Positions 39,443 to 62,822 of a DNA stretch of 64,000 nt are shown one piece after another. The notes under the pieces were generated by a model. The model was not told the DNA's origin. It did no database searches and saw nothing but the letters and a program-made list of their open reading frames with translations. Source of the stretch: Anaerolineae bacterium (GTDB lineage Bacteria; Chloroflexota; Anaerolineae; Aggregatilineales; Phototrophicaceae); NCBI GenBank assembly GCA_022824365.1, contig JAJEAA010000004.1, positions 1-64,000 on the forward strand, read 5' to 3'. How positions within the stretch are numbered: position 1 is the first letter of the stretch; every line of letters begins with the position of its first letter. Position numbers and translations under genes: made by a program.

Positions 39443-42400
39443 TTAGCGATTGACCGTATCACCGCAGTAGTCGTGCAGGCTGGCGAACCAAGCCATCTCG
39501 TTGGTGACCCAATCTTCGTCTTCAATCCAGTGGTAGGCATGGGATTCGAGCACCTCATCGCGGGTATAGAATACCTCGATATCTCTCTCCTCGGATGTCC
39601 AATCGGCGCTGCTGTACTTGTCTTGACCGACAATCTTGTATTCGCCGCTTTTCGCCAGCGCGTGAATAGCAGCCTGATTGGAAATGCGATAGTAGACATG
39701 GGGCGAATAGCCGGCGGGCATATCGCCGACGCAAGCGATCGCGGTAAGCATGCGCTGTTCGGTCGCTGTATCGTAGGGATCAATGTAAAAGCCCATCGGC
39801 TCATGCACGCGGATGATGGCCGGCTCTTCCTCGAGCTTCTGGCGGGTTTCTTTCAGTTGGGCGCCCTGGCTGTCGATGACCGCTTCTTTGTCCCGCAAAT
39901 CAGATTCGATAGACTTGATTGCAGCGTCTTTCTCTTGCAACTGATTAGCCGCGTCGTCCAGTTGCGCGGCGACTGACTCAGCGGCAGCCAAGGCGCCTTG
40001 CAGTTCGGCCTTGAGAGCGGCGTTCCGCGCATCGCTGGCCTGCAACTTTGCCGCAAGCGCTTCCAATTCCGCTTCCAAGCCCGCGACTTCGGCGTCTTTC
40101 ATTTTCAGTCGGTTCGCTGCGGCCGCTTCAAGCTGCGTCTGTGCAGCGCGCAAGTCAAATTCGAGCCGCGCTATCGCTTCATTCCGCGCATCCAATTGCG
40201 CCTCGGCGGCGCCCAAAAGCAACGATAGCGACTCCGCCGCCACCTGCGCATCCCGCAGGTCGCCTTCGAGAGAGACGATTGCAGCGTCGCGTTGGGACAG
40301 TCTGGTTTCGGCGTCTTCCAGCAGAATCGATTGCGTCTCTGCAGCCGAGCGCGCGGCAGCCAAGTCAGATTCGAGACCCGCTATCGCTTCATTCCGCGCA
40401 TCCAATTGCGCCGCCGCCGATTCGGCAGCGATTCGCGCCTCATGCAAGTCGTCTTCCAGAGCGACAATTTCCGCTTCGCGTTCGGATAGCCTGGTTTCGG
40501 CATCTTCGAGCAGAATCGATTGCGTCTCTGCAGCCCAGCGCGCGGCAGCCAAGTCAGATTCGAGACGCGCTATCTCTTCATTCCGCGCATCCAATTGCGC
40601 CGCCGCCGATTCGGCAGCGATTCGCGCCTCATGCAAGTCGTCTTGGAGAGCGGCAATTTCTGCGTCACGTTCGGTCAGTCCGGTTTCGGCGTCTTCCAGC
40701 AGAATCGATTGCGTCTCTGCAGCCGAGCGCGCAGCAGCCAAGTCAGATTCGAGACGCGCTATCGCTTCATTCCGCGCATCCAATTGCGCCGTCGTCGATT
40801 CGGCGGCGATTCGCGCCTCATGCAAGTCGCCTTGGAGAACGGCAATTTCAGCGTCGCGTTCGGATAGCCTGGTTTCGGCGTCTTCGAGCAGAATCGATTG
40901 CGTCTCTACCGCGGCGCGCGCATCATGCAAGTCGGCCTCGAGGGTGGCGATCCGCTTATCTTTGACATTCAGTTGCGTCTGGGCAGCTTCCAAATCAGCG
41001 GTTGTCGAACGGGCGGCCGCTTGCGCATCCTCCAGCCCCACTTCCAAACCGGCGACTTGAACCGCATAACTCGTCAGCTTGCTCTTGGCATCGTTCAATT
41101 CTGTCGACAAAGCTTGCACAGCCGCGAGGGCATCGCGCAAGTCAGCTTCGAGGCTTTCGATTTCGGCGCGCTTCTCCAACAGTTCGTTCCGGGCATAATC
41201 CAGTTGGGTCGATTCAGACGTGGCCGTTTCCAGAATGAATTGGACCTCTTCCTCAAGGCTGGAGATCTGCTCGTCCTTTTCCTGGAGCATAGCCTCGGCT
41301 TCTTTCAGAAGCGCCGCTTGAATCCGTATCTCGCTCCGCAGTTCTTGTATATCGGCTTCGAGATTGGAGGCTTGAGCTTTCTTCTCGTCCAATTGCGCTT
41401 TGGCATAGGTCAATTGAGCCGCCTGCGCCCGCAGCGCTCCTTGTGATTCTTGCAGCGCAGCTTCCATTTCGGCTATGTGCGCTTCCTTTTCGCTCAATTG
41501 CGCCGCCGAGTATTCCAACCTGGCGGATTGCGTCTGCGCGAGCGCCAGCGCATCCTGCAACTGTGTCTCGATGCCAGCGATGTATGCATCCTTTTCGCCA
41601 AGCTGAGTCTCGGCGAATTCAAGTTGCGCCGTCTGCGTTTGCACGGTCGCTTTCATTTCCTGCAAGTTCGCTTCGAGGCCAACGCTCAAATCGTCCTTTT
41701 CTTTCAGTTGACTGCGCGCCGCTTCCAGGTGCGCGGCGGTGGCTTGCTTGATACTTTCAGCATCGGAAAGCGCGGACCGCGCGGCCTGCAGTTCGGATTC
41801 AAAGGCGGCGGCCTGGGCGCTCTTCTCGTTCAGTTCGTTCGCCGCGTATTGCAACTGCGCCGACTGCGTATGCACCGTCGCCTGCGCTTGCTCCAGTTCC
41901 GCCTCGAGATTGGCGATTCGCGCGTCCTTGACTTGCAGTTGTTCTTTGGCGAATTTCAACTGCGCCGACGCCGCCTGTAATTCGCCCTGCCTACCCAGCG
42001 AAGCAGCCTCCGCTTCCTGCAGCCCGGATTCGAATTCCGCGATCCGCGCGTCGCGCTCCTTCAACTCGGACGTCGCGTATTCCAACTGCGCCGACTTGGT
42101 ATAGACAGCGGCGCGCGAGGCCTGCAAATCCGCTTCCAGCCCGGCGATCTCGGCATCCTTTTCTTCAAGCTGCTGGTTAACAAGAACCAACTGGGCTCCC
42201 TGGGCATCCTGCGATGCCTGGGACACATCCTGCAAGCTCGATTCCATGCTGGCGATAAGGGCGTCCTTCTCTGTCAAGCGCTCTTGCGAGTAATCGAGCT
42301 GAGCTGTCTTGGTATGGACGACGGCTTGAGACGCTTGCAAGTCGGCCTGGACTTGAGCAATCTGCGCATCCTTCTCTTTTACTTGTTCCCGGACAAGCTC

Positions 42401-43429
42401 CAATTGCGCTGTCGCGGCCTGCCAATTGCCTTGCGCGTCCAACAGCGTGGTCTCGACAGCTTGCAAGTCCGCCTGGATTTGCGCGATTTGCGCATCCCGT
42501 TCAAGCAGTTCGTTTTCGGCGTAATCCAATTGGGCGGACTTGGTATGCACGGTCGCTTGCGAGACTTGCAGCGCAGCCTGGACGCTGGCGATCTCGGCGT
42601 CCTTCGCCTGCATCTGCCTCTGGACAACTTCCAATTGAGCCGCCGCCACTTGCCATTCGCCGCGGATATCCAGCATCTCACTCTCGGCGGTCTGCAGGTC
42701 AACCTGCGCGGCCGCGATCAGCGCGTCTTGTTCTTTCAGTTCGCTCTCGGCAAATTGCAACTGCGCCGTCTTGGCATGCAGGTCCGCGCGGGACTCATCC
42801 AACTCGGCCTGAATGCTCGCGGTCTGCGCTTCTCTTTCCTTGAGGCGGTTTTCGGTCAGCTGCAACTGCACGGAGGCGACTTGGCCGGAACCTTGCGCTT
42901 CCCGCAACGCGGTCTCGGTATCCCGCAGTTCCGCTTCGATGCTTGCGAATTGAGCATCGCGGGTATTGAGGCGGTTTTCCGCGTAATACAGCTTGGCGGC
43001 CGCGTCTTGCATCGCGGCTTGGGTATCCTGCAAGTTAGTCTCGACCGTAGCAATGCGCGCGTCTTTTTCGTCCAGCCGGGTCTCGGCCGTATCGAGCACA
43101 GCCAGGGTCTTCTTCAACTCGCTTTGGGTTTCCTGCAAACTGTCTTCAGCAGCTTGCATTTGGGATTCCAATTCCAGACGCCGGGCGCCAGATTCTTGTA
43201 ACTGCACATCGAGCGCTTGCAAGCGATCTTCCGCTACTTGCAGGCTGGCGGCGGTCGAACCCAGCAGGTCCTCGTTTTCTTGCAGTTGCTTTCGCAATGA
43301 CTCATATTGAGTGAAGGCAAATAAACCGGCCAGTGTCACGACGATCAAGAAAAGAACAATAACCACAATCCGAGGCACATTGGGCTTGCGTATATATATT
43401 GTCGCGAAAGGTTTGGGTTTCTCTTCCAT
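39443..43429 (-). CDS. Very long membrane-anchored coiled-coil protein
   Basis: The product has 1328 residues. A short cytoplasmic start is followed by one membrane helix (about 20-39), then about 1150 residues of unbroken heptads (Ala-Gln-Leu, Glu-Lys-Asp-Ala). They are organised as repeats of 35 or 42 residues (five or six heptads) in the first two thirds and of exactly 63 residues (nine heptads) near residues 840-1100. The last 120 residues are globular, with Tyr-Ile-Asp-Pro-Tyr-Asp-Thr-Ala-Thr-Glu and several Trp; I know no family for them. Extended coils of this length would span over 100 nm. It probably tethers or spaces something from the membrane. No SMC or myosin ATPase domain is present. 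Confidence 0.85.
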   Translation of the reverse strand: MEEKPKPFATIYIRKPNVPRIVVIVLFLIVVTLAGLFAFTQYESLRKQLQENEDLLGSTAASLQVAEDRLQALDVQLQESGARRLELESQMQAAEDSLQETQSELKKTLAVLDTAETRLDEKDARIATVETNLQDTQAAMQDAAAKLYYAENRLNTRDAQFASIEAELRDTETALREAQGSGQVASVQLQLTENRLKEREAQTASIQAELDESRADLHAKTAQLQFAESELKEQDALIAAAQVDLQTAESEMLDIRGEWQVAAAQLEVVQRQMQAKDAEIASVQAALQVSQATVHTKSAQLDYAENELLERDAQIAQIQADLQAVETTLLDAQGNWQAATAQLELVREQVKEKDAQIAQVQADLQASQAVVHTKTAQLDYSQERLTEKDALIASMESSLQDVSQASQDAQGAQLVLVNQQLEEKDAEIAGLEADLQASRAAVYTKSAQLEYATSELKERDARIAEFESGLQEAEAASLGRQGELQAASAQLKFAKEQLQVKDARIANLEAELEQAQATVHTQSAQLQYAANELNEKSAQAAAFESELQAARSALSDAESIKQATAAHLEAARSQLKEKDDLSVGLEANLQEMKATVQTQTAQLEFAETQLGEKDAYIAGIETQLQDALALAQTQSARLEYSAAQLSEKEAHIAEMEAALQESQGALRAQAAQLTYAKAQLDEKKAQASNLEADIQELRSEIRIQAALLKEAEAMLQEKDEQISSLEEEVQFILETATSESTQLDYARNELLEKRAEIESLEADLRDALAAVQALSTELNDAKSKLTSYAVQVAGLEVGLEDAQAAARSTTADLEAAQTQLNVKDKRIATLEADLHDARAAVETQSILLEDAETRLSERDAEIAVLQGDLHEARIAAESTTAQLDARNEAIARLESDLAAARSAAETQSILLEDAETGLTERDAEIAALQDDLHEARIAAESAAAQLDARNEEIARLESDLAAARWAAETQSILLEDAETRLSEREAEIVALEDDLHEARIAAESAAAQLDARNEAIAGLESDLAAARSAAETQSILLEDAETRLSQRDAAIVSLEGDLRDAQVAAESLSLLLGAAEAQLDARNEAIARLEFDLRAAQTQLEAAAANRLKMKDAEVAGLEAELEALAAKLQASDARNAALKAELQGALAAAESVAAQLDDAANQLQEKDAAIKSIESDLRDKEAVIDSQGAQLKETRQKLEEEPAIIRVHEPMGFYIDPYDTATEQRMLTAIACVGDMPAGYSPHVYYRISNQAAIHALAKSGEYKIVGQDKYSSADWTSEERDIEVFYTRDEVLESHAYHWIEDEDWVTNEMAWFASLHDYCGDTVNR
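40140..40925 (-). repeat. 189-bp tandem repeats inside the coiled-coil gene
   Basis: The word CAGAATCGATTGCG begins at 40322, 40511, 40700 and 40889, exactly 189 bases apart. The units share most bases over the whole period and each encodes 63 residues or nine heptads. Such near-identical tandem units can expand or contract by recombination while keeping the coil in register. Confidence 0.92.
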
Positions 43430-45903: not shown

Positions 45904-47712
45904 TCAGTCGCCGACTATCTCTATGGACTCGACGCCATAGAATTGCTCGGCGAAGCGCAGTGTGCCCATGCCGATGTAGTCAGCCAGGTCAAAGGAGAGC
46001 GGCGTCACTTCAATATGCGTCAAGCCCTTGTCGCGCTGCGCGAGGATAATTTCGTGCCGAGCATCCCACTCGCGGGCGTAGGTCTGCAAGTCGGGGACCA
46101 ACCGCGCCTGCCCCAAGAAGATGCCGCCGCCCAGCGCAAGAGCCGCAAGCAAGCCGCCAGCCGCCAGCCGCCGAGCCTGAACTGCGGCAGATAGATTGAT
46201 CATTCGTCCCAAGTACAAACCCCAAAACAGGCCAGCGACCACCTGCAAAAATGCCGGACCCGCCATCATCCGATGCGAGGTGAAGCCGTGACCGATGAAG
46301 GTTACGCATATCAGCGCCGCAATCGTGACCCAGGCAATAACAAGTGTGCCCGCTGACGCTCGCTCAAGCGCGCGTGTTCCGCAATCGGGAAGTTCCGGTC
46401 GCCACAGAATTGCCAGCATGATCAACATGCCAAGGGCAGTCGCAAAAAGGTAGGTCGAGGCGCGCGCGTCAATGCTGCGGACCTGCGTTAGCGTCACCAG
46501 AATCAGGAAAGCCAGCAGCAGGAAGCCGGAGACCGCGGTCAGCCCGTGTTCTTGAGCTTTCAGAGCTGCCGTCACTCGCCGCCGCTGCCGGAGCGCGAGC
46601 AGAAGAGCGAGCAGCAAGGCCACGTTTATAGCGAGGACAATCATATAACTTGAGCTATAGCGCCCGAAGAACTGAGGATTGTCGCTGAGGTGCGCCCACA
46701 AGATCGGCAGAAACAGGAATTGAACAGCCAGGCCCGTCAGCGCTGCCTGTGTGAATCGAGCGGCTAAGGACCCGCGCGCCATCCTTTCCGGCGACGTTTT
46801 AGTCTGCGCGCCCAGAGTAATGCCCATCCCGAACAGGAGCGCAAAACCGGCGATGACCTCTTGCCGGCCCACGCTCTCGAAACTTATCTGCGCCGTAATA
46901 GCCGCCAGTTGCGATAGCGAGCGGATCGGCGGGCGATAATTGACGGCGTCCGCCTCCATGCGATTCCAAATGCCGGGCGAACTGAGTTGCAGGAGCAATC
47001 CGACGGCGGTCGCGATCAGCATCGCGCCGGCCACGATAGCCAGAGCGCGGCGTCTTTGCCCATCGACGACCGTTACAGCCAGCGCCGCGAGGAGCGTCAA
47101 GAAAGTAGCCTGAAAAACAAGAAACATTTCGGAAGCGCCAGCGGTGAGAAAGCTGATCAGCGCGCAGGCGCTCGCCCCCCAAAGAAGACGCTGTCTAGAC
47201 TGGGGCCACTTGTCAATCGTCCAGGCAGCAAGCGCCAGACAGACAATGAGGCAAACAAGCGGCAGGGTGTATTGCACGCTCGCGGAATACCAGTAAAAGG
47301 ATTCCGGCGTATAAAAGGCGTTGATGGCAGCCGCAAGCGCGAGGCAAGACGCGGCGAGCGCATAAAAGCGGCGCGGTCCGCCCAGCCGAATATGCCTGAA
47401 GATCTGACAAAGCAGCCAATACAAAGCGAATAGGCCGATGATAATGATGATGAGAGTGATCAGCGGCGGCAGCGTCACCGCGTATTCAGCCAGGCTCAGC
47501 CTGAGAAAGATGCTTGAATAGGCGCTGGTCCAGCGATTGTAATAATGAAGCAAGCCATCCCAGACGCCATACTCCAGTCCCGCGGCCGCAACGCCGAAGT
47601 CATCGTGAATCATGCGGCTATGCAAACCCAGGTAGGCAAAGAGCAACAGCGGCGCGCTTGCCAGCACAAGCAGAATCCACTTGAACGCCCGCTCTAACTG
47701 CATTCTGCGCAT
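45904..47712 (-). CDS. Polytopic membrane protein, possible GT-C type glycosyltransferase
   Basis: The product has 602 residues with about 11-13 membrane helices. After the first helix there is a His-Asp-Asp-Phe motif in the first long loop, and a further conserved region Trp-Tyr-Ser-Ala-Ser-Val-Gln-Tyr-Thr. This layout matches DUF6056/GT-C-like glycosyltransferases, where the acidic pair handles a lipid-phosphate sugar. It starts directly at the end of the PBP-like gene (no gap) and was probably transcribed with it, suggesting a role in the cell envelope. Confidence 0.7.
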   Translation of the reverse strand: MRRMQLERAFKWILLVLASAPLLLFAYLGLHSRMIHDDFGVAAAGLEYGVWDGLLHYYNRWTSAYSSIFLRLSLAEYAVTLPPLITLIIIIIGLFALYWLLCQIFRHIRLGGPRRFYALAASCLALAAAINAFYTPESFYWYSASVQYTLPLVCLIVCLALAAWTIDKWPQSRQRLLWGASACALISFLTAGASEMFLVFQATFLTLLAALAVTVVDGQRRRALAIVAGAMLIATAVGLLLQLSSPGIWNRMEADAVNYRPPIRSLSQLAAITAQISFESVGRQEVIAGFALLFGMGITLGAQTKTSPERMARGSLAARFTQAALTGLAVQFLFLPILWAHLSDNPQFFGRYSSSYMIVLAINVALLLALLLALRQRRRVTAALKAQEHGLTAVSGFLLLAFLILVTLTQVRSIDARASTYLFATALGMLIMLAILWRPELPDCGTRALERASAGTLVIAWVTIAALICVTFIGHGFTSHRMMAGPAFLQVVAGLFWGLYLGRMINLSAAVQARRLAAGGLLAALALGGGIFLGQARLVPDLQTYAREWDARHEIILAQRDKGLTHIEVTPLSFDLADYIGMGTLRFAEQFYGVESIEIVGD

Positions 47713-50631
47713 TTACCCGGCCTCGTCTCTCGATATCGTCAGTCGCGACTCGGCGCGATTGCCCACCTGGTCATAAGCCACCGCTCGGATTGTCGCGTCC
47801 TCGGCGGCGCCCAAGTTTACTTCTATGCCATAGGGCCATTCGGCATCGATGCCGAGCAATTCGTCATCGCGGTAGAACTCAACCCGCTCTATCGTGAGAT
47901 TGTCGCTGACGGCCGCAAGAAGGGAAACCGGCTGATCGGCTGGCGTCGATCCGTCGCTCTTTTGCAGTTGTATGGCCGGCGGGGTGTTATCGAAGGTCAA
48001 CAACCTGGTATCAGTTTCCCGGCTGCCGTCGGCGAAGGTCACCGTCAAGCGCAGAGTGTGGATGCCGCTGAGCAGCGCAGTTTCCCAGGTGGCGGAAATG
48101 GCGCCGTCGGTTTCAGGTCGGCGCGGCTCGCCGATAGCCCGCCACGATTTTGGATTTACATCCGCGCCATATTCCAGCAGCCAGCTTTCGGCGTCATCGC
48201 GATTTATCCTGGCGCTTATGTCCACGGTTGAGCCGACATAGGCGTAATCGGCCGGCGCTGTAATCTGGACCGCTTTGCTGGCCGGCGCCGCGCCATCGGC
48301 GCTGTAACTTGTAGGCGGCAAGGGCTTGTCATTTTCCACCCACCAATCCAGGATCGCTTCCGGCGGCAGGAAGTAAGCGACTTCTTCGCGCAAATCGTCC
48401 GGCGTATTGACGGTGGCCAACTGACCGGTCGCGCGGTTGATCTCGACCGTCTGCCACCTGTCATCGCGGCGCAGGTTGGAGCCAGCGGGCATCAGTTCGC
48501 GCCGCGTCGGGCAATGATTAGTGGTCGCCGGCAACAAGCCTGAAAGCTCACAGACCAGGTATTCTTCCACATCATCAGGCGCTTGCCAGGCGCTCGGCGG
48601 TAGAGCGCGCTGCTGATGCGCGTACGTCATCAGCGCTTGCCAGACGGGCGCTGAAGCCAGGCGCTGCCCGGGGTCGATGCTCATGCCCGCCTCATCGTCA
48701 CGGCCTGCGCGCACGACGATGGCCAGATGCGGACTATAACCCACGGTCCAGCTATCGCGTTTGTCCGCGCTCAGCCCGTCCAGCACGGCGGCCGGCCGCG
48801 CAAGTTGCAAAGCGAGGTCCGGCTCTTGCAGCGTTGTCTGCCGCGCCTCGCCATCAGCCAGGATATCATTCACCAGGTAGGCCAGGCTCGGTTCAATAAT
48901 CTGGGTCTGCCGCGCCTCTTCTCCCGCGTAGGACCAAAGGACGGCGCCGGCCGCGTCCGCGATCTCCAAGACTGCCACCGGGTCCCATCCGCGATAGCCG
49001 GCGCCCGGCGATTCTATTGGCACACCGCGCATCGCGCCGAGTGAAGCCAGCACGCTATAGGCATAGGCGGTATCCAGCACGGAGACACTTCCGCCTCGCT
49101 CCAAGAGTTCAAGATCCCCGTCGCCGGCGTCCAAACTGCTAAAGCCCAATGCCTGCGCCGTATTTATCACTGCCGGCATACCGGCCGCGCTGGCCACCTG
49201 CGCCACCGGCAGGAGCAGATCAGCCGCCATGGCATCGCGCAGGTTCAGCGGACCACGATGGCGGCCGTCGGGATTGGCCGGCGTATAGATTAGCTCGGCT
49301 CTTCGCCCGGGATAGGCGCGCGGGATGTCATAGACCATGGAGGCCGGCGTGAGCTCGCGCTGCAGGAAGGCGCGTATATAGACGAAGGGGCGCAGCACAG
49401 TCGCCGGTTGATGCCGCGGCGCGACGGCAGCGCCGACAAGGCTCAGAATCTCCCCATTGCCGACATCGATCAGGACAAGCGCGCCTTGGTTAGGCGGCGA
49501 TGCAAGGGATAGCGACGGCAGCGTCAAATCAGAAGAGGTCGCGCAGGCGGCGCCGGAATCTGTTCCGCCGACGTTAAATTTTCCGAGGTGGCTGTCCAGC
49601 GCGCACTTGGCCTGATATTGCAGGTCCAAATCGAGCGATGTGGTAATCCGCAGGCCCCCGCGCGCTACCATATTTTCGCCGTCCTGCCCCAGCCGGGCGA
49701 GAATTGCGGCCGCTTGCCCCCGGGCGTAGTCGATGAATTCGGGCGCAATAGAGGAGTCGTCTTCCGCCGGCGCCAGGACGGGCACATCGCTAGTGGCGGC
49801 CGCGTCAAATTGCGCCTCGTCGATCAAATCCGCAGCGAGCATGTCAAAGAGCAGATCGTCGCCGCGCTCGCGGCTGCGCTGTTCCGCGTCGATGGGATTC
49901 AGGGCAGGCTCTTCCGCCGTCTTGGCGAGGATTGCCGCTTCCGCCAGGTCAAGCTGCGCGGCGTTTTTGCCGAAGTACACCTTGGCGGCCGCGTCGATCC
50001 CGTAAGCATCGTGTCCATAGAAACGGCTGTTCAGTCGCCACTCGAGCAATTCTTCCGCCGAGCGACTGCGCTTGCTTTCGGCGATCAGCACGATTTCCAG
50101 CAGGCGCGGATCCAATCCACTCCTTCGGGTTAATGGCAGCATCGCTTCACGCGCGAGCGCGCCAGCGAGGCCGTCGTCCGAAGCGAGCGGCAATCCGATA
50201 ATGTAGCGCCAGGTTTGCAGCGCCGTATCGAGCAGATCAAATGAGGGTGGCGCAGTCAGAAATGTCGGCTCCTCGACCAGCAGCGTCGCGTCAATCACAT
50301 GTTTGGGCAACTGATCAAGCGGTCGCCAGCGCCGCTCGTCGCCAAGCGGATCACGGGTACGGTGGATTTCTATTGCGCCGCCCCGATCATAAAAGCGCGT
50401 GACACCGTAGACCGGATCCAGAGAGACGCTTTCTTGCGGCGTCGGCAGGTGGCTCGCCGCTTGTATATAGAGCCAGATAGACAAGCCCAAGCCCGCAATT
50501 ACAGGCGTCAACAGAAGCGAGGCGGGAAAGAAGAAGATCAGGGTCAGCCAAAATGCCGAGCGCCGCGATTCCTGGCGGCGTCGACGCTTGCGGCTATACC
50601 GCCGGCGGATGATATGAGCCACAGCGGGCAT
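47713..50631 (-). CDS. Class A PBP homologue with degenerate active sites
   Basis: The product has 972 residues. A basic start and one membrane helix (about 28-57) lead into a GT51 transglycosylase-like domain (70-250), a transpeptidase-like domain (290-670) and a C-terminal part with two Ig-like domains (about 780-970). Key motifs are lost. GT51 motif 1 keeps Glu120-Glu121 but lacks the His; the Gln-Gln of motif 2 is absent. The transpeptidase SxxK reads Thr411-Val-Leu-Arg414, the SxN region reads Asp-Leu-Leu-Leu (about 471), and KTG is missing at 612-620. The fold is clear (PFVY, DSWTVGY), so it looks like an enzyme that became a scaffold or regulator. Confidence 0.85.
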   Translation of the reverse strand: MPAVAHIIRRRYSRKRRRRQESRRSAFWLTLIFFFPASLLLTPVIAGLGLSIWLYIQAASHLPTPQESVSLDPVYGVTRFYDRGGAIEIHRTRDPLGDERRWRPLDQLPKHVIDATLLVEEPTFLTAPPSFDLLDTALQTWRYIIGLPLASDDGLAGALAREAMLPLTRRSGLDPRLLEIVLIAESKRSRSAEELLEWRLNSRFYGHDAYGIDAAAKVYFGKNAAQLDLAEAAILAKTAEEPALNPIDAEQRSRERGDDLLFDMLAADLIDEAQFDAAATSDVPVLAPAEDDSSIAPEFIDYARGQAAAILARLGQDGENMVARGGLRITTSLDLDLQYQAKCALDSHLGKFNVGGTDSGAACATSSDLTLPSLSLASPPNQGALVLIDVGNGEILSLVGAAVAPRHQPATVLRPFVYIRAFLQRELTPASMVYDIPRAYPGRRAELIYTPANPDGRHRGPLNLRDAMAADLLLPVAQVASAAGMPAVINTAQALGFSSLDAGDGDLELLERGGSVSVLDTAYAYSVLASLGAMRGVPIESPGAGYRGWDPVAVLEIADAAGAVLWSYAGEEARQTQIIEPSLAYLVNDILADGEARQTTLQEPDLALQLARPAAVLDGLSADKRDSWTVGYSPHLAIVVRAGRDDEAGMSIDPGQRLASAPVWQALMTYAHQQRALPPSAWQAPDDVEEYLVCELSGLLPATTNHCPTRRELMPAGSNLRRDDRWQTVEINRATGQLATVNTPDDLREEVAYFLPPEAILDWWVENDKPLPPTSYSADGAAPASKAVQITAPADYAYVGSTVDISARINRDDAESWLLEYGADVNPKSWRAIGEPRRPETDGAISATWETALLSGIHTLRLTVTFADGSRETDTRLLTFDNTPPAIQLQKSDGSTPADQPVSLLAAVSDNLTIERVEFYRDDELLGIDAEWPYGIEVNLGAAEDATIRAVAYDQVGNRAESRLTISRDEAG

Positions 50632-50781: not shown

Positions 50782-51315
50782 TTAGTCGCCCAGCGAATCC
50801 AGATAGCCCCGCAGCCCGTCCCAGTCGTCCTTCGCGGCGAAAACAGCCTGGGCTGGCCAGGTCTCCAGGCGTCCGGGGCGGCTGCGGCCGGCCGCTTCGA
50901 ATATCGCTTCCAGGTCTTCCACACTAGCCTGCGCCAGCGCGCTGTATGTTGTGAGGCCAGCTTCATTCAGCACCGTTTCAAAGACAGCGCCGACGCCATT
51001 TACGCGGGTCAAGTCATCGGGATCGGAACGTTCTTCGATTGTTTCGGCGGCCTCATCGGCGTGCCGGATGATGGTCCGTTTCGCCAGCTCTTCCGCCTCT
51101 TGCGCCGCGGCTTCAGCTGCTTCCGCCTCGCTTTGGACGGCGCTATCACGGCGCGACCATATCCAGACGACAATGGCCACCGCCAGCAAACTGATCGTCC
51201 AGGACCACATGTCTCGGTTGCCCGCCGGCGCCACCGAAGCATTAAGCGCCAATGCGATTGCGAGCACCAAAGCCATCATCGCCAGCATATTCTTCGCTTC
51301 TTGATTGAATCTCAT
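50782..51315 (-). CDS. Membrane protein with helix-hairpin-helix domain
   Basis: The product has about 177 residues from ATG 51315 (ATG 51345 is an alternative). Two membrane helices (about 10-28 and 35-52), then a Glu/Ala-rich coil (60-95), then a C-terminal HhH-like domain with Asp-Asp-Leu-Thr-Arg-Val-Asn-Gly-Val-Gly and Leu-Asn-Glu-Ala-Gly-Leu-Thr-Thr-Tyr. The last part resembles the domain seen at the ends of bacterial L21-like and polymerase-associated proteins, possibly for DNA or protein contacts. Confidence 0.7.
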   Translation of the reverse strand: MRFNQEAKNMLAMMALVLAIALALNASVAPAGNRDMWSWTISLLAVAIVVWIWSRRDSAVQSEAEAAEAAAQEAEELAKRTIIRHADEAAETIEERSDPDDLTRVNGVGAVFETVLNEAGLTTYSALAQASVEDLEAIFEAAGRSRPGRLETWPAQAVFAAKDDWDGLRGYLDSLGD

Positions 51316-51422
51316 CGTGACCGTCCAGTTTTTGCCATGCGCCAAATTATAGCATATCGGCTATGATAAACGCCGAGAGCGCTTAACGCCATATGCGCTA
51401 ACATCTATACGTTGAAAGCGCC

Positions 51423-61222: not shown

Positions 61223-61307
61223 CGAGTCCCCCGCGTCAGGCATTTCGCGCCGAGCCATACCACTGCGCTATCGAGGCGCGTTTTGCGCTTGGGCTATAAT
61301 GAGGAGA

Positions 61308-62822
61308 ATGGAACTGCTGAGGAAATCGACCGCGATGCTCAAGCAAGTCCGTCTCTTCCTGCTTGTCGCTCTGCTCAGTCTGCTCACATGCGGAGCGGCT
61401 TTCGCGCGCGGTGTACAACAGGGGGAAAATTGCAGCGTGCCGGCGGACGCCGTGATACAGGGCGCCCTCTTCGCCTTTTGTCAAACCCTGGACATTGCGG
61501 GCAGAGTCGAAGGCAATGTGATCGGCATCGGATTGCGGGCGACGATCAGCGGCGAGGTGAGCGGGAATGTCTACCTGGCGGGCTTGGAGCTGGACGTGAC
61601 CGGCGCGGTCGACGGCGACTTGCACTATGTGGGCTTGATGCTGGAATTGGCGAGCGCCGATACCGCCCGGCGCCAAGTCCTGCGAGGCCAATTGATCTTC
61701 GCCGCTTTATCCTTCGCGCTCGATAGCGAGACAGAATTCTTCGGTCCAATTACCGGCGTCGGCTATCAGGCGCTTATCAACGGCGAAGTTCGCGGCGAGG
61801 TCAATTATTGGGGTTCGGCCTTCGCGCTCAACAACAGACTTGAGGGCGATGTCTACACCACGGTGGGCAATCCCGAATCCGATGTCAGCGATGTGGAGAC
61901 ATTGCTGCTGCCGCTGGGCATTGAGTTTTCGCCGGCGACGCCGGGCCTTGTCATTACCGGCAATGGCAGCATCCGCGGAGATCTGGAATACATTGGACCG
62001 GCCGAAGCGACGATAGAAGGCGAGATCAGCGGCGTTGTGACACATTATTCGACCATCCCGGTCTTTATTCCGGAGTTGCCGCAACGAGGTTTGGCAACGC
62101 TGGTTTATGACAATTTCAAACGCGAGTTTACCGTCCTGCTCACAGTTGGAATTCTTGGAATCGTCTTTGCCGGCAGGCGCTTTCGATACCCGCTGACACA
62201 GATGCGACGGCGGCCCGCGCGCAGTTTTGTCATCGGCATGCTTCTCTTCATCATTTCTTTTCCGATTATGCTGATTCTTCTGCTGGCTACGCTGGTCATT
62301 GTCTTGCTGCTGCTGGTCTTGAATCTCGAGGGGGTCGCGCTGCCGCTGGGCGTATTTCTGGGGCTGGTTGACGTGGGCTTGATCGGGATCTTTTATTTCT
62401 GCGCCATATTCGTAGCGCGGGCGATCTTCGCCTTAGGTTTGGGACGTCTGGTCATGCAGGTCGCGATGGGGCGAGGCAACGCGCGGCGGCGACCACGCAT
62501 GAGCATGCTCATCGGCGTCGGGCTGCTGGCGCTGCTCACGTCGATGCCCGGCGTCGGCTTCCTCTTTAATGCCGGCGCCTTGTTTCTGGGTTTGGGCGCT
62601 ATCGCCAGCTCAACAATGGGCTGGCTGCGGACCGTGCGCCGCAGTCGCTTAGGCGAAATGGCCCCGGGGGGGGGCGGCGGATGGTCAGCGCAAGGCGAAG
62701 CTCAGCCAATAAATATCGCGCCAACAGCGCGGGCGCAACTCCCGCCGCTTCTGCCTGCCAAACTCGGGCTTGATGACTTGCCGGTCGGCTTCGATCCCGA
62801 TTTCTTTTTCTCCGATGACTAA
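61308..62822 (+). CDS. Membrane protein with bactofilin-like outer domain
   Basis: The product has about 504 residues from ATG 61308. A signal-like segment is followed by a beta-solenoid region (about 40-250) with repeated Gly-x-Val-x-Gly-Asn and Ile-Ser-Gly-Glu-Val words, like polymer-forming bactofilins, but here outside the membrane. About four to five helices follow (260-440), then a Gly/Pro-rich tail. It includes a run of nine G (62665-62673). It may form a surface or envelope structure; no known system includes it. Confidence 0.75.
   Translation: MELLRKSTAMLKQVRLFLLVALLSLLTCGAAFARGVQQGENCSVPADAVIQGALFAFCQTLDIAGRVEGNVIGIGLRATISGEVSGNVYLAGLELDVTGAVDGDLHYVGLMLELASADTARRQVLRGQLIFAALSFALDSETEFFGPITGVGYQALINGEVRGEVNYWGSAFALNNRLEGDVYTTVGNPESDVSDVETLLLPLGIEFSPATPGLVITGNGSIRGDLEYIGPAEATIEGEISGVVTHYSTIPVFIPELPQRGLATLVYDNFKREFTVLLTVGILGIVFAGRRFRYPLTQMRRRPARSFVIGMLLFIISFPIMLILLLATLVIVLLLLVLNLEGVALPLGVFLGLVDVGLIGIFYFCAIFVARAIFALGLGRLVMQVAMGRGNARRRPRMSMLIGVGLLALLTSMPGVGFLFNAGALFLGLGAIASSTMGWLRTVRRSRLGEMAPGGGGGWSAQGEAQPINIAPTARAQLPPLLPAKLGLDDLPVGFDPDFFFSDD

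Follow-up and report, generated by a model that had tools for sequence, protein, structure and literature searches.

Background

Class A penicillin-binding proteins (PBPs) of the PBP1A and PBP1C (PbpC) type are built in a common order: a basic tail, one membrane helix, a GT51 domain, a transpeptidase (TP) fold and a C-terminal extension. What is inferred about non-catalytic jobs of PBPs has come mostly from point mutants made by engineering. C. difficile PBP3 works without its own catalytic activity and forms complexes with PBP1 (PMC12539705), and the same paper cites the allosteric activation of FtsW by FtsI in B. subtilis and S. aureus. Caulobacter PbpC, described as a cell wall synthase, binds the bactofilin BacA through its residues 1–13 (PMC12448750).

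Here we describe a 972-residue protein (pseudo-PBP), encoded at 47713..50631 on the minus strand of the window (the whole stretch of 64,000 nucleotides that was analysed). It shares its folds and their order with PBP1A/PBP1C-type enzymes but has none of their transpeptidase catalytic residues, and its GT51 motifs 2 and 3 are rewritten. As in C. difficile PBP3 and FtsI (class B), a PBP would serve complex formation or regulation apart from its transpeptidase; this is what we propose below. Those two are, however, ordinary PBPs in which catalysis is dispensed with, whereas the pseudo-PBP belongs to class A and has lost its residues naturally. It shares with Caulobacter PbpC its class and a tail that is basic next to the membrane; in PbpC, a short conserved cytoplasmic peptide at the N-terminus is the docking site. 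A naturally double-degenerate class A PBP is not described in the open-access literature that we searched, which is weak evidence of absence.

Domain architecture and predicted fold

The reading frame starts with ATG and contains no internal stop, in agreement with the original prediction of a frame open across 972 residues. Pfam places Transgly at residues 98–264 (66 bits) and Big_7 at 893–948, while the Transpeptidase model stays under its cut-off (E=0.12). The best NCBIfam models (PBP_1a_fam, PbpC and PBP_1c) are likewise each under cut-off, and the solved structures nearest by sequence are PBP1A proteins. An AlphaFold model based on 41 orthologues (mean pLDDT 87.1) runs from a membrane helix through GT51-type helical and transpeptidase-type domains and a further region to two Ig-like domains; the domain order, anchor and Ig-like tail described from the sequence are thus present, with both helix and tail visible in the model. 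VIA-align of the model to PBP1B, PBP1A and related structures gives Z of 34–39. The structure prediction suggested at the outset returned a class A PBP fold at a pLDDT of 87, with a Z of about 37 for the transpeptidase domain alone, both against S. pneumoniae PBP1a (2c6w_B; Z 37.3, rmsd 2.4 Å, 343 residues) and M. tuberculosis PonA1 (5crf_A; Z 37.2, 2.5 Å, 342 residues); higher rmsd values in some structure matches come from whole-chain alignments that span both domains.

The modelled helix covers residues 4–59 and is hydrophobic from about residue 26, which places the membrane anchor at about residues 26–58 (50458..50556, minus strand). The N-terminal anchor, GT51 fold and transpeptidase fold lie on a single chain, and the protein falls into one clade with the intact orthologues of its order, to which it is about 33–39% identical over the full length. 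By ancestry and fold, it counts among the class A PBPs.

In front of the anchor lies a cytoplasmic tail (residues 1–28, MPAVAHIIRRRYSRKRRRR...; 50548..50631, minus strand), whose basic character, of the IIRRRRxRKRRR type, is ancestral and which is better conserved in the family. On the far side of the transpeptidase domain follows a region (residues 671–790; 48262..48621, minus strand) with C694 and C707, unchanged across all 41 aligned sequences, and a WW(x)EN(G)xPLPP linker; BiPBP_C was matched in this region in 2 of the 41 relatives. Two Ig/FnIII-like domains lie at residues 791–966 (47734..48261, minus strand), with structure matches to 3pdd (Z 13.5, 173 residues, 5.5 Å rmsd) and, on the last of them, to 9kvu (Z 12.8, 89 residues, 2.1 Å). 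The C-terminal 300 residues, a small region followed by these two domains, are modelled at a pLDDT of 90.3.

Loss of the transpeptidase motifs across the family

Alignment, AlphaFold model and structure search delimit a transpeptidase-fold domain at residues 380–670 (48622..49494, minus strand) without catalytic residues. In an alignment that took in the intact orthologues and the three other class A PBPs of the same genome, the SxxK position is occupied by T411-V-L-R414 (49390..49401), the SxN position by D471-L-L473 (49213..49221) and the KTG position by L617-D-G619 (48775..48783, all minus strand). The absence of all three motifs, as initially read from the single sequence, is confirmed by both orthologues and paralogues, and none of the signatures of an active PF00905 transpeptidase (SxxK, SxN, K(T/S)G) is present. 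A canonical Ser/Lys pair at shifted positions, which would have overturned this reading, was sought in the whole sequence and is not there. The only SxxK, S621-A-D-K624, sits on the strand after the KTG position and occurs in 12 of the 33 genus members and in none of the 61 rows from the rest of the family; we therefore rejected it as a shifted active site, being both misplaced and unconserved. The window protein is almost certainly dead as a transpeptidase and, because the nucleophile is gone, covalent acylation by beta-lactams is predicted to be absent.

A search of 60 relatives found orthologues in every sampled family of the order. Within the window's family (f1), 98 genomes were searched with an intact orthologue and 56 further loci were read. 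A degenerate orthologue was found in 92 of the 98 genomes, representing 22 of 24 genera, none with the transpeptidase Ser or Lys, and all 56 further loci were degenerate as well. A full-length orthologue was not found in G033, G069, G080, G098, G104 and G119, some of these assemblies being fragmentary. That the genus member G033 has no detectable orthologue indicates that the pseudo-PBP is not universally required; its copies of the neighbouring amidohydrolase gene sit in another gene context.

Residues were counted in 33 rows from the genus, 61 from the rest of the family (one record among them is believed to have been counted twice), 4 from family f4 and 26 intact. The six transpeptidase residues are all kept in 26 of 26 scored sister-lineage orthologues, and none is kept in 32/33 genus and 46/61 other family rows, the remainder keeping one. 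No family row has the nucleophile Ser (Val, Ile, Pro, Gly and others stand there instead) or the SxxK Lys (replaced by Gln, His, Tyr, Leu, Arg and others). Motifs are degenerate in every member of f1 and f4, and all are intact in the orthologues of families f2, f3, f5, f6, f7 and f8 and in further Anaerolineales and Chloroflexi records. The conservation check in close relatives thus found the changed state family-wide and, with intact motifs confined to other families, the objection of a local error fails: the same losses in 92 family genomes led us to reject sequencing error or recent mutation. In f4, 3 of 4 rows retain the Ser with Arg in place of the Lys, and SxN and KTG are missing. Of the f4 loci L053, L056, L057 and L058, most still have the Ser and every one has GT51 motif 1, which means that the order of residue loss differs from that in f1.

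Alterations of the GT51 domain

The GT51 (Transgly) domain, placed by Pfam and alignment at residues 98–264 (49840..50340, minus strand, as are all its motifs), is altered in motifs 1–3. In motif 1 (E120-E121-P-T-F124, intact EDxxF; 50260..50274) the catalytic Glu is retained and the Asp has become Glu. At the motif 2 position (residues 150–162; 50146..50184) DGLAGALARE stands for STITQQLVKN; the change noted there originally is real, ASDDGLAGAL being found where the intact sequence is GGSTITQQ. The motif 3 position (residues 175–179; 50095..50109) reads PRLLE for RKxxE, so that neither GGSTxTQQ nor RKxxE is present and only the second Glu survives from the latter. Motif 4 (residues 192–201, ...LLEWRLN; 50029..50058) is largely retained by residue counts, with N201 invariant and E197 in 91/94 family rows. 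By motif equivalence, the two catalytic Glu correspond to E233 and E290 of E. coli PBP1b. How much each residue of the domain counts is judged here from its conservation in these alignments and from general knowledge.

Both catalytic Glu are retained in 24/33 genus and 54/61 other family rows. Outside the genus, the first is found in 59/61 rows, the Asp after it in 57/61 and the second Glu in 55/61, with motif 4 also retained; in motif 2 the first Gln is replaced by Gly in 52/61 and the second by Arg in 57/61, and motif 3 has lost its Arg in most rows. GT51 positions drift far more within the window's genus than elsewhere in the family: the motif 1 Asp is left in 10/33 rows and the Phe in 7/33, its Glu is gone in 8/33, and the Thr/Ser of motif 2 are mostly Gly. 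From these counts, with the catalytic Glu retained and the QQ of motif 2 turned into GR, the domain looks rebuilt across the family outside the genus and eroded inside it. Peptidoglycan polymerisation is probably not carried out by the window protein, and we rate polymerase activity as unlikely for it; since most relatives keep the Glu, a residual or altered glycosyltransferase role is possible.

Remaining wall enzymes and origin of the degenerate state

Besides other Transpeptidase-domain proteins and three SEDS proteins, the genome has three class A PBPs that remain intact, and its peptidoglycan synthesis is therefore presumably normal. An unusual envelope, offered originally to make such a protein plausible, is not needed as an explanation given these class A PBPs, Transpeptidase-domain proteins and SEDS proteins. 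The other class A PBPs of the genome are ~27–30% identical to the pseudo-PBP (BLASTP) and are found in sister families too, and GT51 copies number 2–4 per genome in all families. The conversion of an extra duplicate was rejected, as this orthologue has no second, intact copy in the genome. The dead protein fills the place of one ancestral enzyme and is not an extra copy, and the ancestor-type protein, which the sister families still have, is shown to be a normal bifunctional PBP1A/PbpC-like enzyme orthologous to it. Many genus genomes (G002, G003, G005 and more) give only three GT51 matches and none to the 850-aa active paralogue, which seems to be missing from a large part of the genus, and still keep the pseudo-PBP; its retention does not follow that paralogue.

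The PBP tree groups f1 with f4 (SH-aLRT 97–98) and disfavours f4 with f3+f8 (AU p=0.0115). The rpoB tree places f4 among intact families and does not reject f1+f4 (AU p=0.44); from the two trees, one origin and two origins are both possible. A further degenerate relative, L147:3001-5652 (Dive96_bin10.148), has lost the transpeptidase motifs and partly keeps motif 2 (LTITQQ); a separate origin for it was not established (AU p=0.50).

Selection and shift of constraint

Nei-Gojobori dN/dS over the whole gene is 0.16–0.29 in family pairs, 0.04–0.15 in pairs of intact orthologues and 0.08 in f4, the family values indicating purifying selection on the pseudo-PBP. Pseudogene decay was rejected with dN/dS well below 1, ~900–1000 codons open in nearly all genomes and the fold intact. 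Loss of catalysis throughout a clade that keeps the fold under purifying selection marks a pseudoenzyme under selection. Of the earlier proposal of selection on a non-enzymatic role, selection for a function apart from transpeptidation has strong support from the 92/98 genomes, dN/dS and fold.

Family and intact pairs matched at 45–55% overall identity differ in where that identity lies. It is lower in the family for GT51 (50% vs 60%) and the transpeptidase domain (52% vs 57%) and higher for the N-terminal tail (45% vs 25%), the post-transpeptidase region (50.5% vs 41.8%), which is under tighter constraint than its counterpart in intact orthologues, and Big_7 (46.6% vs 33.8%). Constraint has moved from both catalytic domains to the cytoplasmic tail and the C-terminal domains, the pattern that a switch from chemistry to binding would leave.

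Gene neighbourhood

The stop codon of the PBP gene is followed without a gap (TAA ATG) by the start of a co-oriented gene for a 602-aa DUF6056/GT-C-like membrane protein (45904..47712, minus strand). The direct junction described originally is therefore real, while the GT-C assignment consists of a sub-threshold DUF6056 match (PF19528, 25.0 bits, short of the curated cut-off of 27) together with a membrane-protein sequence, and the arrangement belongs to part of one genus only. In 9/9 genus loci examined with flanks outside the L036-L040 subgroup, a co-oriented DUF6056-type gene, often in tandem copies, follows that of the PBP; it is not directly downstream in that subgroup or in other genera of the family with the dead protein. 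The adjacent protein is thus a candidate partner only within the window's genus, and the gene neighbourhoods examined gave no conserved operon partner beyond it. In L061-L066, DUF6056/GT-C-like proteins are amplified beside the pseudo-PBP, with up to five consecutive ORFs in L063, some of which may be fragments.

Eleven loci (L035, L041, L042, L044, L046, L050-L052, L055, L059 and L068), from several families and two of them from f1, encode an OmpR-type response regulator beside the PBP orthologue. It is mostly divergently upstream and accompanies both intact (the majority) and dead PBPs; in the window's genus it is not adjacent to the pseudo-PBP gene. Upstream of the pseudo-PBP, a 187-aa ORF (50782-51345) with helix-hairpin-helix/DUF4332 similarity and hydrophobic N-terminal segments is conserved across much of the genus. 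Elsewhere in the window, 39443-43429 encodes a 1328-aa predicted coiled-coil protein that matches the Fez1, crescentin rod and DUF641 models, and a bactofilin domain (PF04519, E=2.7e-8) is carried by the 507-aa ORF at 61299-62822, whose product may be a cytoskeletal protein to which PBP tails bind. By analogy with Caulobacter PbpC, this last protein as a partner of the pseudo-PBP is only a suggestion.

Possible functions of the pseudo-PBP

We infer, with a probability of about 0.55, that the protein is a long-established class A PBP pseudoenzyme that has taken on the part of a non-catalytic subunit in a peptidoglycan-synthesis complex. This reading is supported by the uniform loss of motifs, purifying selection, the retained fold, the shift of constraint and the availability of active enzymes. 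It starts from a chain in which all transpeptidase catalytic residues are replaced and GT51 motifs 2–3 rewritten, and fold, anchor, tail and Ig-like domains kept. Held in the membrane by its anchor, the pseudo-PBP may engage a cytoplasmic or membrane partner with its conserved basic tail, and the wall or another synthase with its dead GT/TP body and Ig-like domains, and could thereby position or allosterically control one intact PBP. It probably organises working wall enzymes, and the odds are about even that it does so as a scaffold or regulator of the synthase complex; the originally proposed 'scaffold or sensor' role is still our best guess. The broader claim of a non-enzymatic role stands for the transpeptidase, dead everywhere, and is weakened by a GT51 domain that is not uniformly dead.

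The retained Glu pair is also what speaks for a monofunctional glycosyltransferase, in which the transpeptidase would be dead, GT51 would polymerise or modify a lipid-linked glycan and cross-linking would come from other PBPs. The rebuilt site (EDPDFL / SLTGRLVRN / REIA / ILEWHLN), with its conserved Gly and Arg, fits this; yet no intact orthologue departs from QQ or RK, GT51 is the domain in which matched identity falls by ten points, and in the window's own genus the site is eroded, so we regard this alternative as unlikely. A more specific form, in which the site was rebuilt (QQ to GR, SLTGRLVRN) for another lipid-linked substrate or for binding only and was later stripped in the genus, is decidedly improbable. 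A wall sensor, whose dead GT/TP body would bind nascent strands, stem peptides or beta-lactams non-covalently and signal via the basic tail, would agree with the retained fold, the strengthened constraint on the tail and the response regulator at 11 loci. The regulator is, however, mostly beside intact enzymes and absent beside the gene in the window's genus, and the former ligand-contact positions drift freely (V/P/I/G/T at the Ser site) with no new binding residue fixed, which makes such a sensor quite unlikely.

The gapless junction and the 9/9 genus loci could be read as the pseudo-PBP carrying or anchoring the adjacent DUF6056 GT-C-like protein, the two jointly adding or attaching a surface glycan. 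But that gene is not directly downstream in L036-L040 and in other genera that have the dead protein, so this role cannot explain family-wide retention and is very improbable. From one sequence, the loss of every transpeptidase motif might look like a decaying gene or an assembly artefact; shared by 92/98 genomes from independent assemblies, with open frames, constrained dN/dS and an intact fold, it has virtually no chance of being either. The preferred reading is still that of a non-catalytic subunit of the synthesis complex.

Conclusions

Were the GT51 domain indeed rebuilt for another substrate or for binding, the protein would represent a class A PBP repurposed for a new envelope function with a dead transpeptidase. 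By prediction, the pseudo-PBP is a penicillin-binding protein unable to bind penicillin, and automatic annotation may readily call it an active synthase. It offers natural separation-of-function material, as its remaining role cannot be cross-linking. In this family of environmental Chloroflexota, the chemistry of cross-linking has been lost and that of building sugar chains largely lost, family-wide, and a full-length membrane protein has been kept under selection.
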